In this document: positions 6,330 through 13,450 of the stretch, one piece after another
Position numbering within the stretch: position 1 is the first letter of the stretch
Layout: every line of letters begins with the position of its first letter
Source of the DNA: Tannerellaceae bacterium
Lineage (GTDB): Bacteria; Bacteroidota; Bacteroidia; Bacteroidales; Tannerellaceae
Assembly (NCBI GenBank): GCA_031285925.1
Contig: JAITVG010000272.1
Location: forward strand, 1-32,833
DNA length: 32,833 nucleotides
Direction of reading: 5' to 3'
Program-made: the position numbers and the translations under genes
Notes under the pieces: model-generated
What the model saw: the letters and a program-made list of their open reading frames with translations, nothing else
What the model was told of the DNA's origin: nothing
Database searches by the model: none

Positions 6330-8132
6330 TTAAGTATAACCTATCCGCGGCCTGTCATTTTTCTTTTTAACGTTTTCTCCATCCATTTTCACTTTAATAC
6401 TTTCATATTTTTTGAGTTCATGCAAAGGGACGGATGGTTTGGTGTTTTTGATTACGCTTTTCAGCATATCCATTGAGATTCTGGATTTGGTTTTCAAAGC
6501 GAGTACTGAAGCCTCCTTTACTAAAAATTCAATGTCGGCCGAAACATAATTTTCCGTAAGTGTAGACAATTCTTCGTAATCCATCCCGAAATCCAGCGGG
6601 CGACTCTTTAGATACATCTCAAACATGGCTTTCCTTGCCTCAAAATCGGGTGGCGGCAAATAGAATTTCTTCTCCAAACGGCCGGCACGAAGCATTGCCG
6701 GATCAATCATATCAGGATAATTGGTTGCGCCAATGATGAAAATTCCCTTTTCGCCTGTCCTGTCCATCTGCGCCAACATTTCGTTTACGGCGCTTTTCGC
6801 CATTTCGTGGGCATCGCTGTCGCGCTTGGGCAACAGCTCATTTATTTCGTCAATGAAAATTATAGTCGGTGCATTCTTTTCGGCTTCCTCAAACATTTTC
6901 GCAATATTTTCCTGCGTTGCATTTATATAGCGGCTTTTCAATGTACTTGGTGTGGCCGGTATAAAATTGAATCCAACCTCTTCGGCAAAATGTTTGGCAA
7001 AAAAAGTTTTCCCACAGCCGGGCGGGCCATACAATAACATTCCGTTTGGAATTGTAACACCATATTTTGCGTATTCTTCGGGGTTATGTAAAGCGTCGAT
7101 CACATCCAATTGCAATTGTGCTTTCAATTCCTTCATTCCCGCTATCGCGTCAAAACCTTTCCCTACCGCCTTTCTGCCTTGTATTTTCTTTTCCGGCTTG
7201 TCATCCGATTTTATTTTTTGAACTTTATCTATATCCTCAATATCTATTTTCCCGTTTAATGCCTGAATAAATTCATCCGCACTTTGAAAACGGTTTTCCA
7301 TATCTCCGCTTAACGCCTTTTTCAAAAGCAAATTTATTACATCATCATAACCGATAAAATCCTTTGCAATTTCCGGAAACGACAAAGGCTTGCTTCTTTC
7401 CGTCAGAACGCTTTCTTCCGCATTTATCCGGTCTGCCCGGAATCTCGAAATATCCTTAAACCAGGGCGGCAAGCCGAAAAGCAGTTGATACATTACGGCA
7501 CCGATCGAAAAAATATCGCTCTGCGGCGAATACAAACCATTGAAACACTCCGAAGCCACATAGTTCAAGTTCAAACCGGCTTTGTTGTATGCCTTAGTCG
7601 ATGAATGAAACGACCGGGCAAAACCAAAGTCGATGATTTTCGCTTTTGGAATATCGCCCGACAAATCCAGCATAATGTTTTGCGGTGTGATTTCGTTGTG
7701 AATAATCGGTTCGGGCATTTTGTGCAGATAACTCAAACCTTTCAACACATCGGATATAATTTGCCGGATGTCGTAATAATTGGTAAACGATTCACGGCTT
7801 ATTCTTTCCGACAGCGTTTCGCCGACAATGAAATCCAAAACCAAATGGCCGAATTTCCTGTTCTCAAAAATCATTTCGCCACTGTCTTTCCAGGAAACAA
7901 TGTTCTCCTGTTTTATTTTTTTCAAAAACTCAATTTCCAGCAAATTGTTTTCGCTGTCAAAAGCCGAACGGTGTAATTTGGCATAATCAAACAACTTCAG
8001 GAAATACAATTTCCCGTCCGAACCTTTTACGCGATACGTTTCGGCATTGCTTCCCTGTTTGATGAAAAGTAAAACACTGTATTTTCCATCAATAGAAAAT
8101 CCTTTTGGTAATATGCCTTTGTAATTATTCAT
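6330..8132 (-). CDS. Protein kinase-like domain fused to AAA+ ATPase
   Basis: This 600-aa fusion has two parts. Residues about 14-290 form a Hanks-type kinase fold: a degenerate glycine loop (KQGSNAETY), ATP lysine in YFLKLF (K46), catalytic-loop position HNEITPQN (145-152), IDFGFAR (167-173) and SDIFSIG (205-211). Residues about 325-570 form a classical-clade AAA+ module: Walker A GPPGCGKT (369-376), Walker B IIFIDE (424-429), sensor GATN (468-471) and MLRAGR with candidate arginine fingers (R482, R485). The HRD aspartate is replaced by Glu and the usual catalytic-loop Lys by Thr. The kinase half may therefore be a pseudokinase or weakly active, while DFG and the AAA+ motifs look intact. The start codon overlaps the Hsp70 stop as TAATG, suggesting translational coupling. 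The AAA+ half may remodel or unfold clients of the neighbouring Hsp70; that role is inference. Confidence 0.88.
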   Translation of the reverse strand: MNNYKGILPKGFSIDGKYSVLLFIKQGSNAETYRVKGSDGKLYFLKLFDYAKLHRSAFDSENNLLEIEFLKKIKQENIVSWKDSGEMIFENRKFGHLVLDFIVGETLSERISRESFTNYYDIRQIISDVLKGLSYLHKMPEPIIHNEITPQNIMLDLSGDIPKAKIIDFGFARSFHSSTKAYNKAGLNLNYVASECFNGLYSPQSDIFSIGAVMYQLLFGLPPWFKDISRFRADRINAEESVLTERSKPLSFPEIAKDFIGYDDVINLLLKKALSGDMENRFQSADEFIQALNGKIDIEDIDKVQKIKSDDKPEKKIQGRKAVGKGFDAIAGMKELKAQLQLDVIDALHNPEEYAKYGVTIPNGMLLYGPPGCGKTFFAKHFAEEVGFNFIPATPSTLKSRYINATQENIAKMFEEAEKNAPTIIFIDEINELLPKRDSDAHEMAKSAVNEMLAQMDRTGEKGIFIIGATNYPDMIDPAMLRAGRLEKKFYLPPPDFEARKAMFEMYLKSRPLDFGMDYEELSTLTENYVSADIEFLVKEASVLALKTKSRISMDMLKSVIKNTKPSVPLHELKKYESIKVKMDGENVKKKNDRPRIGYT

Positions 8133-10663
8133 TAGCCTAATGTATTTGTCGGTCTTTCATTATCAGGCATTAAACCGATCACTTGAATGAGAATGTTGCG
8201 GATGCCCGAAGTGTTTCCGTTTGCCGCCATTTGCAAGCCTTGATTAAGCAGCTGTCTTGCTTTGTTGGCATCTTTCCAATGATAAGAGCCGAAACTGTCG
8301 TTTATGTGGCGCAGGAACTGAACGTCCATTGCGTTTCCTGTAACAAGATTGCGCAATTCAAAATCCAACTGTGCGATTTCTATTTTGAGTCCTTTCGCCT
8401 CTTTGATGTTTTTTTCTTTGATGGCATGTTCCACTTTCTTTCTGTATTCTTCCAAGTTATCTTCCACTTGCTTCATATTCACGCTATTGGCAGTGCCGAG
8501 TTGTTTGATTTTTCCAATTAAATTTTCCAACTCATAGAACGCATTCTTCAGTTCTTCCTCAACCTTTGGATATTCTGCCGATTTCTCTGCGCTGTCCAAC
8601 TTCAACAACTCTTTACGCAAACCGTCCAGTATCTTCATTTTGCCGTCGGCACTTCCTTTTTCGTTTTCAAGTTGATCTTCAAAAGCATTCAGTTTTTCCG
8701 CAATATTATCGGCTTTTACTTTTTGCGCTACCTGTTTTGCCTTTGAAATTTCGTTTGTCAAAAAATCTTCTGTCGGAGGTTCGGTTTGCTTTATTTCTAT
8801 TTTCAATTCTTCCGTGTGCTCTATTGTCGGAAACTCTGCCGTAAATTGCATTATTTGCGACCTGTCCACTTTGATTGTAATGTTTACATCGCTTCCTTCC
8901 GGCAACAGTTTCGGCAAACTTTCACCGCTAATGATAACTTCCTTTATCAAATTGTTCAGTACGGGATTTGTTCCCTCTGCATTATGATCGCCCTGATAAA
9001 TAGGAATACGAATAAAGTCGCTTGCCATTCCGGGGCGAATTGTCGTCCTTGTTTTCAAACCGTTTACTACGCCCGTAACCGGTACTTTTTTGTTCTTTTC
9101 CAATCCCTTTACCGGCAGGAACAAATCTTTTTCTTCGGTGTGGAAATACTTCGCTATACCAATGTGATACGGTAAAACCTGCATCCCATCCAGTCCGCCG
9201 ATACCTTGCAAAATACTGAACTTGTTGGGCTGACATTCCAGTTTGTTTCCGGACTCATCGTAAACGTTTACATCAAAAGCATTGGATTGTCCTTCATTCA
9301 AAACAACTTCCACAATCGACGATTTTTCGCCGATCTGCCTCTTTCCGCTACTCCAGGCACGGTCGGAACGTACCACATCGACATAAATCTTTTCGGGGAA
9401 AGAACCTTCCGTTTTTTCTTTCAGCACTTTGATATTTATCATTTCCTCCAACTCAACGCTTGTGGCTTCGTATTTAATATCCAACTGCAATTTTGTTTTA
9501 TCCCGCGTTTCTTCTTTCACTTCGTCGGAAACCGTAATTGTAGAAGCAAACAATGCCGCACCTTTTGAAACTACGGTCATCGGATCGACGGAAGCATCAA
9601 CGTTTTCCGTAATTTGTTCTTTCAGCATTCGTCGCAGGATCGGCGAAAAAGTCGGGCCGCCGACCAAAATCAAAGCGTCCAGATCAGAACCGTTCAGATT
9701 ATTGCGTTTCAACAAGTCCTTGGTTATGTCAATCGCCTTTTGAAAAATCGGCGCAACGGCATTTTCCATATCTTTTTGTGTAACTGCCACATCTATTTCA
9801 GGCTCTTCTCCGTTATCGTCTTCAAAAGGCAAATCGCCCAGATTGGAAAGAATATGGTGTGTGTCTTTAAACGATAACTGAATTTTCGCTTCTTCGGCAA
9901 AAGGTTTAACCGCATTACGCAGAATTTCCTTTTTTGTTGCGTTCCCCAAAATACTTTCGATGGCGTAACTTGCCCGCAAATTCGGAATGATCAATTGGTC
10001 AACGATTGCTTCATCCAAGTTTTTACCGCCCAGCCAATTATCTCCGTCCGTATCTTTTACCGACAAAATACCTTCTTCCGATTTTACCAAAGCGGCATCA
10101 AACGTTCCGCCTCCAAAATCGAATACACACCAGAAACCGTCTTTATTTTTTGCCGTCAAACCGTAGGCCGTTGCGGCAGCAACAGGTTCCTGTAATAATT
10201 GAACGTGTTTGAAACCTGCCATTTTTGCGGCTTTCATCGTGGCTTCGTTTTGTGGATTCAAGAATTTAGCAGGAACGGTAATAACGATTGAATAGATATT
10301 TTCGTCTTGAATATAGGATTTCAATTTTTTCAACACTTCGGCCGACAGTTCTTCCGGCGATAATGCCCTGCCCAAATTGGAACTTTCGTAAGTATGCGTC
10401 GTTCCCATGGTTCGCTTAAACTCGATAAACGTGTTTGTTTGTCCTGTTTCAAACGATTTCAACGCCCTTGTGTTGTCGTTTTTCATCACATTGAAAGCCG
10501 TGTCGCCAACTAAAACAGCCTTACGCTTGTTGAAATGAACACACGACGGTGTAGTGTCTTTCAATGTGTCGGACTTTTTAATGGTAGGCTGTCCGTTTTC
10601 CATTCTTGCAATTGCCGAATTGGTTGTCCCCAAGTCAATGCCGTAGTCAATTTTATTTCTCAT
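8132..10663 (-). CDS. Divergent Hsp70 (DnaK-like) chaperone, 843 aa
   Basis: The N-terminal 380 residues are a complete Hsp70 nucleotide-binding domain: phosphate-1 GIDLGTTNS (8-16), the EFKR lysine (about 83), connect-1 PAKFLNPQNEATMKAA (131-146), phosphate-2 FDFGGGTFDA (181-190) and adenosine motif LVGGPTFSPILRRM (333-346). After it comes LQLD (392-395), where DnaK has its hydrophobic linker. Next is an extra beta-rich segment (about 405-485), then a region resembling the DnaK substrate-binding beta-sandwich (about 497-625) and a long charged helical tail (about 635-843). At 843 aa it is some 200 longer than typical DnaK, so it is not the housekeeping copy. It follows the GrpE-like gene by 51 bases and overlaps the kinase-AAA+ start by one base. 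It probably acts in the cytosol with the two membrane-anchored partners upstream. Confidence 0.9.
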   Translation of the reverse strand: MRNKIDYGIDLGTTNSAIARMENGQPTIKKSDTLKDTTPSCVHFNKRKAVLVGDTAFNVMKNDNTRALKSFETGQTNTFIEFKRTMGTTHTYESSNLGRALSPEELSAEVLKKLKSYIQDENIYSIVITVPAKFLNPQNEATMKAAKMAGFKHVQLLQEPVAAATAYGLTAKNKDGFWCVFDFGGGTFDAALVKSEEGILSVKDTDGDNWLGGKNLDEAIVDQLIIPNLRASYAIESILGNATKKEILRNAVKPFAEEAKIQLSFKDTHHILSNLGDLPFEDDNGEEPEIDVAVTQKDMENAVAPIFQKAIDITKDLLKRNNLNGSDLDALILVGGPTFSPILRRMLKEQITENVDASVDPMTVVSKGAALFASTITVSDEVKEETRDKTKLQLDIKYEATSVELEEMINIKVLKEKTEGSFPEKIYVDVVRSDRAWSSGKRQIGEKSSIVEVVLNEGQSNAFDVNVYDESGNKLECQPNKFSILQGIGGLDGMQVLPYHIGIAKYFHTEEKDLFLPVKGLEKNKKVPVTGVVNGLKTRTTIRPGMASDFIRIPIYQGDHNAEGTNPVLNNLIKEVIISGESLPKLLPEGSDVNITIKVDRSQIMQFTAEFPTIEHTEELKIEIKQTEPPTEDFLTNEISKAKQVAQKVKADNIAEKLNAFEDQLENEKGSADGKMKILDGLRKELLKLDSAEKSAEYPKVEEELKNAFYELENLIGKIKQLGTANSVNMKQVEDNLEEYRKKVEHAIKEKNIKEAKGLKIEIAQLDFELRNLVTGNAMDVQFLRHINDSFGSYHWKDANKARQLLNQGLQMAANGNTSGIRNILIQVIGLMPDNERPTNTLG

Positions 10664-10714
10664 AACGTATGTATTTATATGTTTTCCTTGCTGATTTGAA
10701 TCCTTTGTGAATAA

Positions 10715-11581
10715 TCACATACCGACAGAAACCTCTATTTGTGCGGTTTGTATCATCTTATCGTTGAAATTCACCTGCGGTATCAATACTTTAGTAATGA
10801 CTTCCGATCCTTTCTCCAGGTTTTCGTCGGGAATGGAACTTGTAACGATTATTTTCATTCCCTGATGATACTGCTTACCCAAAAGTTCGGGTATTTCGTA
10901 ACCGTTTGCCGAAAGGTTGTCTTTCAATTTTCCGACGGAACGTTCCAATTGTTTCAATCCTTTCGTGCCTTTATCCATCAAATTAATGTTGCGTTCGATC
11001 AAATTGATTTCACTTGCAACTTTCAAGGCCAAAGAATGATCGGGTTCGACAAATTGAGGCGATGATCCGGGCATTTGTGACAATACTTCCAGCACTTCCG
11101 TGCTTTTCGCAAATTCATTCACCAATTTCTCGTCTATCGATTGCTTGGTTTGGCTCAACTGTGCGACAATATCCGTTTTGTCTTCCTGCTGCTTTCTGCG
11201 AAGCAGCAAATACAGAACGCCTGAAATAATAACGGCAAAGAGCAATCCGATAATCACCCAAAGAGTTCTTTTACCGAGCAATTTATCTATTTCGGCAATT
11301 TGCTTTTCGGCGTTGGTGCGGGTATTGCTTATTTGTGCATCGAGCCTGTCCGCACGAGCCACAATCGCTTCTTTTTCGCTTTCTACTTCTGTTTGCAACT
11401 CTTCGATAGCGTCATTTACCGTTTTGATTTGTTTCTCCAACTCATTTTTCTGATTTTTTAATTCACTTTGCAACTTCCCGACTTGCTGTTGCAGTTGAAC
11501 GAAAGCAATACTGTCGGGCGTTTGCGAAAATACGGTCAGCGAAAACAGTATCAGGCTGATTGTGAAGATTGATGGTTTCAT
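10715..11581 (-). CDS. Transmembrane coiled-coil protein with GrpE-like C-terminal domain
   Basis: I place the start at 11581 (288 aa), not at the track start 11686. The ATG then overlaps the upstream stop as ATGA and opens a clean signal peptide (MKPSIFTISLILFSLTVFSQ). Residues about 24-103 are a coiled coil, 106-127 a transmembrane helix (TLWVIIGLLFAVIISGVLYLLL) followed by RRK, and 181-288 a soluble domain. A cleaved signal peptide plus positive residues after the helix predict a periplasmic coiled coil and a cytosolic C-terminus. That C-terminus has GrpE-like order: a helix (GLKQLERSVGKLKDNLSANG), then LLGKQYHQGM at the place of GrpE's LHEAM, then ITKVLIPQVNFNDKMIQTA at the place of VLQKGYxLNGRxLRPA. 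With Hsp70 next door it could be a nucleotide-exchange factor. The GrpE link is motif reading only and would need a structure prediction. Confidence 0.7.
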   Translation of the reverse strand: MKPSIFTISLILFSLTVFSQTPDSIAFVQLQQQVGKLQSELKNQKNELEKQIKTVNDAIEELQTEVESEKEAIVARADRLDAQISNTRTNAEKQIAEIDKLLGKRTLWVIIGLLFAVIISGVLYLLLRRKQQEDKTDIVAQLSQTKQSIDEKLVNEFAKSTEVLEVLSQMPGSSPQFVEPDHSLALKVASEINLIERNINLMDKGTKGLKQLERSVGKLKDNLSANGYEIPELLGKQYHQGMKIIVTSSIPDENLEKGSEVITKVLIPQVNFNDKMIQTAQIEVSVGM

Positions 11582-13050
11582 ATATAAGACAATATAATAT
11601 TTACAAGTATGATTATTCCGATTATTCCGATTGTCCACAATATCGCAGCAGCACATCCTTTGTTTTTTGTTTGTGTAGGCGTCCAATAGTCCAAATATTG
11701 AATCTTGGACTTTTGTGCATATCCTACTTTCCCCATCAGGAAATTGACCAGGTTTTTGTATTCATTTATTTTCGTTTGATCTTCAACTGCCTTGATTTTA
11801 TCAATATAAGTCGGTGGTATTGCCTGTTTGATTAAATCTGCGACTTTACTCCAGTCGATAGAATTGTCAATCATTTCATTGACCTTGACCCAATTGATCG
11901 TTTGTCCCCAGGGCAATGATCTTTCCTGTATTCTGACCTGTGCCGTAATTTTTTCCTTATTGGCTTCATACGCTTCCTTTACTGATTTCAACAACGCTAT
12001 TGCTTGCGAAATCTCTTTATCCTTCATTGATCTGATCGTACTGAGGTTGTCTTTGATCCTGCCTTTTACAAGATTTCCGATAGCGACAGTTTCCGCTTTT
12101 TGGGCTAATTTTATTGCTGCCTCAACATAATCGGTATTACTGTTCTTTTCCACGTTGTCATTAAAGTACTCGATGCTGCATTGCAGGATTTCGTTGGCAA
12201 CCTTGTCTGCTATTGATGAATATTTTAAATCGCCTGTGCCAACAATATCTTTAAGTTGCGACAGGTCGTTTGCTGTTTCCACAAACAATTCTTCGCCTGC
12301 CTTTAGTGCATTGGTTTTGTCGGTTTTACGTTTGTTTTTGGTCGATTCTATTTTTTGTTCAATTTGTGTAATCGGCTTCCGGACTAAGTTCTTTAAGAAA
12401 TCCTGCTTTGCCGCAAAATCGTAATTATTCAAATACTTTACAAGTTCAGCCGTTTTTTGGTTGTCGATATTGTCGGAAATTGCTTTTAGAAAATCCAGTT
12501 CGATATCCCCCTTTACTACCTTATATGTTTCATCAACAATACCTTTTATAAAGTTTTCAAAGTAATCACATTCTATAAATTTGATATTTGCCAATACCGC
12601 ATCGGGGAATGATCTTTCAGCCGTAATTAAGGAAAGAACCGCGCTGTTGTGGAAAGCTGAAAAATTCTTCTTTGTAACATCATTCCATAATCTATTTCCC
12701 GATTCATCGGTCGTGCCGGTCAATTTGTCCCAAATTTGGTATGCTGCTTCAATATTTCCTTCTTTCAACGCCTCGAATGCAACTTCGTCGGTAATTGGGC
12801 TTCCGGCCCAAAACCAAAACAACGCTGCATTTATCCTGTCGCTGTCAAGATTGATTTTTGAAGCAGCTTCTTCAACACTCTCAAGCGTTCTGTGTAAATT
12901 TCCAAGTGCGGGGAAACTGAAGTCGCCCTGTGGCTCTTGCTCGGCTTCAATGAATTGTTTGAGTCGCTTTATTTGCCGGGCTTGTTCTCTTGCGGTTGTA
13001 CCGGCAAGTATTCCGACGATTCTGTACGGGTTGTTTTTGACTGTATTCAT
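11578..13050 (-). CDS. Tail-anchored protein with degenerate J-like N-terminus
   Basis: This 490-aa first gene of the operon begins NNPYRIVGILAGTTAREQA. That looks like a J-domain opening (N/D-PY-x-x-LG followed by a helix with alternating basic residues), and a second helix follows (LHRTLESVEEAASKI, about 52-66). The HPD tripeptide that J proteins use to stimulate Hsp70 is absent: the loop reads EAEQEPQGDFSF. Next is NAALFWFW and a helical segment with GNIEAAYQIWDKL (about 98-110), then a long helical, partly coiled-coil body (about 130-450). A single C-terminal membrane helix (about 465-488) leaves the rest in the cytosol. Its gene position beside Hsp70 supports a co-chaperone role. I do not recognise a named family; the J-like reading is inference. 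Confidence 0.75.
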   Translation of the reverse strand: MNTVKNNPYRIVGILAGTTAREQARQIKRLKQFIEAEQEPQGDFSFPALGNLHRTLESVEEAASKINLDSDRINAALFWFWAGSPITDEVAFEALKEGNIEAAYQIWDKLTGTTDESGNRLWNDVTKKNFSAFHNSAVLSLITAERSFPDAVLANIKFIECDYFENFIKGIVDETYKVVKGDIELDFLKAISDNIDNQKTAELVKYLNNYDFAAKQDFLKNLVRKPITQIEQKIESTKNKRKTDKTNALKAGEELFVETANDLSQLKDIVGTGDLKYSSIADKVANEILQCSIEYFNDNVEKNSNTDYVEAAIKLAQKAETVAIGNLVKGRIKDNLSTIRSMKDKEISQAIALLKSVKEAYEANKEKITAQVRIQERSLPWGQTINWVKVNEMIDNSIDWSKVADLIKQAIPPTYIDKIKAVEDQTKINEYKNLVNFLMGKVGYAQKSKIQYLDYWTPTQTKNKGCAAAILWTIGIIGIIILVNIILSYI

Positions 13051-13140: not shown

Positions 13141-13258
13141 TCCCCCAAAAGGGTACTTTTTCAGATAAAAAAGCAAGTTCGGCAGGGTTAAGGAAGAAAT
13201 AACCCTAACAAACAAAGGCTCAACGTATTAATCAATCGTTAAAAAGTGTTTCTATATA

Positions 13259-13327
13259 TAGTACGAGCGCGTAGTACCTATTCAACGGCGTCGTACTATA
13301 GGTAGTACGCGCTCGTACTACCTATAG
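13259..13327. repeat. Nested long inverted repeats in divergent intergenic region
   Basis: Two 22-base arms (13259-13280 and 13299-13320) are inverted copies with one mismatch around an 18-base spacer. The right arm is also part of a perfect hairpin, 13296-13327: 14-base arms (CTATAGGTAGTACG and its exact complement) around a CGCT loop. The two hairpins share the right arm, so they exclude each other. No T-run follows, so this is not a simple terminator. Confidence 0.85.
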
Positions 13328-13343
13328 AAAATCCGGATACTAT

Positions 13344-13424
13344 TTTGGGGTGATATACCGGGGCGACCGCTTTGGGATGATATACCGGGGCGACCGCTTT
13401 GGGGTGATATACCGGGGCGACCGC
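13344..13424. repeat. Three tandem 27-bp repeats
   Basis: The units are 13344-13370, 13371-13397 and 13398-13424. They are identical except for one base in unit 2 (TTTGGGAT for TTTGGGGT). Each ends in GGGGCGACCGC. Because 27 is a multiple of three, the minus-strand frame translates as repeated VAPVYHPKA, which creates the spurious 74-aa ORF in the track. Confidence 0.9.
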
Positions 13425-13436
13425 AAGGGTCGCCCC
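13414..13436. repeat. REP-like hairpin GGGGCGACC / GGTCGCCCC
   Basis: A perfect 9-bp stem (13414-13422 with 13428-13436) closes a GCAAG loop, overlapping the last tandem unit and ending the array. GC-rich palindromes of this sequence type are common dispersed extragenic elements in Bacteroidota and other genomes (recalled from general knowledge, not checked). It could also act as a transcription barrier between the divergent operons. Confidence 0.75.
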
Positions 13437-13450
13437 TACGCAAATCAATA

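Follow-up and report, generated by a model that had tools for sequence, protein, structure and literature searches.

The question raised by this locus, an intergenic region of a Tannerellaceae genome (contig JAITVG010000272.1; the whole 32,833-nucleotide stretch analyzed is referred to as the window), is what kind of element gives rise to two long hairpins competing for the same sequence. Both inverted repeats are exactly as the first-pass annotation had described them. An inverted-repeat search returns a perfect 32-nt hairpin at 13296..13327 with 14-bp arms at 13296-13309 (CTATAGGTAGTACG) and 13314-13327 and the loop CGCT, representing the sole perfect 14-bp stem with a loop of 3-20 nt in the whole window, while none is found in 10 Markov shuffles. 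The competing upstream 22-base arm at 13259-13280 pairs with 13299-13320 at 21 of 22 positions, and the inverted-repeat search together with RNA and DNA folding extends this pairing to a long alternative hairpin at 13249..13330 with 33-nt arms (13249-13281 and 13298-13330; 30/33 paired). The RNA fold of positions 13245-13335 has a predicted energy of -48.9 kcal/mol (z -9.0; DNA fold z -9.3), and the long fold is stronger than the short hairpin alone (-48.1 vs -19.8 kcal/mol). The feature had been placed at 13259-13327, where it is indeed present, but this extent is too narrow as core and repeat array together occupy 13238-13341 and are preceded by a leader. The left neighbor had been given as Hsp70. 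Open reading frame (ORF) calls combined with Pfam searches instead identify the immediate left gene as encoding a 490-aa protein without Pfam match (11578-13050, minus strand), with Hsp70 lying two genes beyond it on the same side. Besides Hsp70, the minus strand at 6330-13050 encodes a protein kinase-AAA fusion and a pair of proteins lacking a Pfam match above the cut-off, possibly all in one operon.

The conserved part of the element is GTTAAAAARTGTTWCT followed by an array with a period of 22 nt, as seen in an alignment of 96 own-genome copies and copies from congeners. At the locus, copy alignments define a 16-nt core GTTAAAAAGTGTTTCT (13238..13253, plus strand) that is near-invariant in the own genome and three congeners. 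The core is followed on the same strand by unit 1 ATATATAGTACGAGCGCGTAGT (13254..13275), assigned by lag-22/44 autocorrelation and unit splitting, unit 2 ACCTATTCAACGGCGTCGTACT (13276..13297) and unit 3 ATAGGTAGTACGCGCTCGTACT (13298..13319), both assigned by unit splitting, and unit 4 ACCTATAGAAAATCCGGATACT (13320..13341), which copy comparison shows to be like unit 4 of a longer family, termed family B. Upstream of the core, a leader-like segment (AAAAAAGCAAGT..GGGTTAAGGAAGAAATAACCCTAAC..CAACGTATTAATCAATC; 13164..13237, plus strand) represents a sub-family feature, with the same segment found before the core in L002, L011, L016, L019, L029 and other copies. Overall, the layout consists of an optional leader, the 16-nt core, three or four direct 22-nt units and a variable tail, with element sizes of about 100-650 nt. 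Three units are found in 75 copies, four in 15 and one in a single copy, and in a column-wise unit split every 22-nt unit ends in W-A-S-T. The top autocorrelation lag is 22 or 44 in 7/8 family sets and lag 22 exceeds the 95% null in 8/8, where two sets from the own genome were partly mixed in this test and were re-sorted for the unit split. The 22-nt periodicity is weaker in one sub-class of the congener G078.

This unit organization accounts for the hairpins. Units in the own species contain the palindromic word GTACGMGCKCGTA, which lets units 1 and 3 pair with each other and likewise the end of unit 2 with the start of unit 4. These two pairings yield the two mutually exclusive hairpins, of which the perfect 32-nt one runs from the end of unit 2 through unit 3 into the start of unit 4. 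The inverted repeats are thus real and exact, yet they are a by-product of palindromic 22-nt units. The hairpins result from the own species' palindromic bricks and probably do not represent the conserved working part of the element. More generally, tandem palindromic units can yield strong hairpins in raw sequence as side effects, which calls for caution.

Several further repeats were observed in association with the element. Family B is a second, ~650-nt non-coding repeat in the own genome with ~15 near-full copies plus fragments (L056, L059, L069, L140, L144, L149 and others), carrying the same core and four 22-nt units within a long leader and tail. Among the genus's five genomes, family B is matched at full length only in the own genome. 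One family B copy (L069) is located upstream of a gene resembling a FecR-type anti-sigma factor, and the family B tail is also present alone elsewhere. A further class, represented by G078 C3:167699 and nine more copies, carries the core GTTAACAAATACTAAC replacing GTTAAAAARTGTTTCT, with the array after the core unchanged. Directly downstream of the array at the locus, a 27-nt unit TTTGGGGTGATATACCGGGGCGACCGC occurs three times in tandem over positions 13344-13440, with a GTAG-tagged REP (GTAGGGGCGACCCTTGCGGTCGCCCC, minus strand) at the end of the run. GGGCGA... repeats similar to these units come after many other element copies.

The locus is one of ~100 dispersed copies in its own genome (G000; 2.82 Mb, 293 contigs, 80% complete). 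Allowing ≤3 mismatches, the 19-nt anchor AAAAGTGTTTCTATATATA matches at 104 places compared with 1 for the reversed control, while the 18-nt palindrome has 149 matches per strand vs 1 for its reversed control. Full-length matches of ~87 nt number 40. One of the options initially offered, a dispersed palindromic element, is therefore borne out by ~100 copies at unrelated intergenic sites. Such multiplicity had also been taken in advance as the mark of an ordinary REP element, and here the copies are present but the label does not fit, the conserved part being the core with its 22-nt tandem array.

Five genomes from the genus were compared. The core is common to G076 (Parabacteroides sp. PF5-6; 8 copies), G077 and G078, and G075 is without any. 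G077 and G078 contain the core in many copies with other bricks; for G078 the number is at least 92 in 1.59 Mb. Unit sequences are species-specific; core and 22-nt phasing are kept in the three congeners. The strong hairpin is limited to the own species and to that congener whose units resemble its own most closely. Median RNA folding z is -6.9 in the own genome vs 0.06 in G077, where the array folds no better than shuffles. An order-wide scan of 393 genomes returned, outside the genus, only scattered matches with 1-2 mismatches that were as rare as those of the reversed control. GTDB r220 contains 2 exact stretches, one of which is PF5-6, and no element matches were found in viral contigs. 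A one-unit version of the element is present in a Tannerella MAG contig (TD116_bin54, L077:1-112) with a flank 97% identical to the own-genome copy L008, which probably represents bin contamination or transfer. Across the genomes searched, the repeat thus appears confined to one genus of gut Bacteroidales.

Comparison of copy positions indicates that the repeat is not static. Between the own genome and G078, orthologous genes carry an element on the same side in 6/34 cases vs 12.7% in control genes, which corresponds to chance (p 0.43). A conserved cis-element at orthologous sites was considered on account of a few suggestive shared flanks and was rejected on this systematic test. In the closer pair G077/G078, about half of the compared sites are shared in the same orientation. 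Sharing at chance level between distant species and at about half of sites between close ones points to spread and turnover of the copies. One site (L118) is shared by G077 and G078 but occupied by different element classes in the two species, which could mean gene conversion and not jumping. Transposition itself is suggested by copy number and turnover. No signal of target-site duplications (TSDs) is seen in 61 aligned G078 copies, and filled/empty pairs of G077/G078 show no clean boundary, with length differences that include other repeats. Inverted-repeat-like ends are found in G076 (TGACA..TGTCA) and in G078 class 2 (AAATGTTAA) and are not clear in the own genome. A search of the Y1 transposase family identified no autonomous parent element or transposase for the repeat.

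The closest known counterpart is BrickBuilt, a MITE of Porphyromonas gingivalis consisting of a leader, tandem 23-nt repeats and a tail that is intergenic, and forms stem-loops (Klein et al. 2015, PMC4596501). BrickBuilt is also known from the relative P. gulae. Both repeats are intergenic, lack coding capacity and have a limited host range within Bacteroidales, and both combine a leader, spacer-less tandem short direct units of variable number and a tail. Long stem-loops are predicted for both, and BrickBuilt loci are likewise shared or lost between strains. However, the unit length is 23 nt in BrickBuilt and 22 nt in the genus repeat, and BrickBuilt is present in 19 copies with up to 22.8 units in contrast to ~100 copies with 3-4 units. 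The BrickBuilt terminal repeat GAGACCTTYGCA, which is like that of ISPg1/ISPg9 (IS5 family), differs from the ends of the genus repeat and is found near 1/131 copies (-300..+400, ≤1 mismatch; control 0). TSDs were reported for BrickBuilt (PMC4596501) whereas none were detected here, and, unlike BrickBuilt, the genus repeat retains its core from species to species and varies its bricks. The repeat is consequently BrickBuilt-like but is not filed as BrickBuilt because its ends differ, its unit is 22 nt long and no TSD is seen. It also resembles MITEs in general in being short, non-coding and multi-copy, with inverted-repeat-like ends in some species, and differs from them in showing no TSD and no identified parent transposon.

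Based on simple, uncurated ORF calls, copies in the own genome are intergenic and favor the upstream side of genes, with orientation relative to genes not fixed. Only 3/96 copies lie inside an ORF call, probably due to ORF-calling errors. Where both neighbors were called, divergent gaps hold 43/74 copies and convergent gaps 3/74. In a 425-kb sample, the element occupies 10/38 divergent, 9/225 tandem and 0/42 convergent gaps (Fisher p 0.0003 for divergent vs convergent). This distribution raises the possibility of a dispersed cis-regulatory element, a mobile operator or promoter where a regulator binds phased 22-nt sites at divergent promoters and controls many genes. The two-helical-turn phasing of the units is in line with such a function, as is the finding that BrickBuilt acts as a bidirectional promoter in E. 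coli (PMC4596501). We nevertheless consider it a doubtful primary explanation, given that orientation relative to genes is variable, positions are not conserved between the own genome and G078, one congener lacks the element and the divergent bias, strong in the own genome, is weaker in G078 (29/146 vs 7/100) and could equally reflect insertion preference or loss elsewhere.

Other readings start from the palindromes themselves. REP/REPIN elements are palindromic repeats mobilized by RAYT, a Y1 transposase, with GTAG- and CGTC-tagged repeats as described examples (PMC3733652). The genus repeat shares with them its ~100 extragenic palindromic copies, Y1 transposases are encoded in all five genomes and an element copy lies within ~1 kb of three RAYT loci in G077/G078 (L187, L188, L191). 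Nonetheless, the RAYT genes inspected are flanked by their own palindromes, different from those of the genus repeat, leading us to reject RAYT as the mobilizer. Moreover, the conserved neighbor of the hairpin is the core GTTAAAAAGTGTTTCT instead of a GTAG/CGTC tag, the composite body of the elements, ~100-650 nt long and including a 22-nt array, exceeds that of REPs, G077 lacks the strong palindrome and G075 possesses a Y1 gene but no element, making a REP/REPIN identity quite unlikely. An intrinsic terminator is more improbable still. The first-pass annotation had noted no T-run, which is correct for the plus strand but wrong for the minus strand, where five T follow the stem (CACTTTTTAAC). 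Yet genes reading into the stem in that direction are under-represented (19/74, p 3e-5), the stem at the locus lies upstream of both neighbors and it is not conserved in G077. The least credible option, also among those proposed at first, is a switch working by inversion or a site for site-specific recombination. In its favor are long inverted arms that enclose a short middle. These arms, however, arise from repeated palindromic units, and the orientation of the middle relative to the core is forward in 55 copies, symmetric in 3 and inverted in 0/58. A structured RNA was rejected as folding strength is not conserved (the G077 median again) and base-pair support is barely above shuffles; Rfam returned no match above the curated gathering threshold in the window, and weak miRNA matches represent chance matches to hairpins.

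We therefore favor, as the probable explanation, that the locus is one copy of a dispersed intergenic repeat of the genus, MITE-like and non-autonomous, and that a protein acting in trans would read its core and phased units. This protein, presumably encoded elsewhere, may be a transposase or a regulator. The units, spaced by two helical turns, would face it from one side of the DNA, and its reading of core and units may drive spread of the copies, their homogenization or both. Copies would persist for the most part on the upstream side of genes and may serve there as portable regulatory DNA or as spacers. More tentatively, the repeat could exemplify a Bacteroidales class that combines a constant core and a helically phased 22-bp array with bricks replaced per species, as if a dedicated DNA-binding or mobilizing protein co-evolved with the bricks and re-wrote or re-seeded them genome-wide at promoter regions.

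A BrickBuilt-like layout is hence also found in another Bacteroidales genus, at ~100 copies per genome, and four related species, with a constant core and changing bricks, allow a natural comparison. Two questions thereby become testable: the identity of the protein that reads an array phased at 22 bp, and whether promoters are provided by such elements. If the co-evolution of protein and bricks is true, the repeat would be more than a passive sequence and would represent an unknown mobile or regulatory system.
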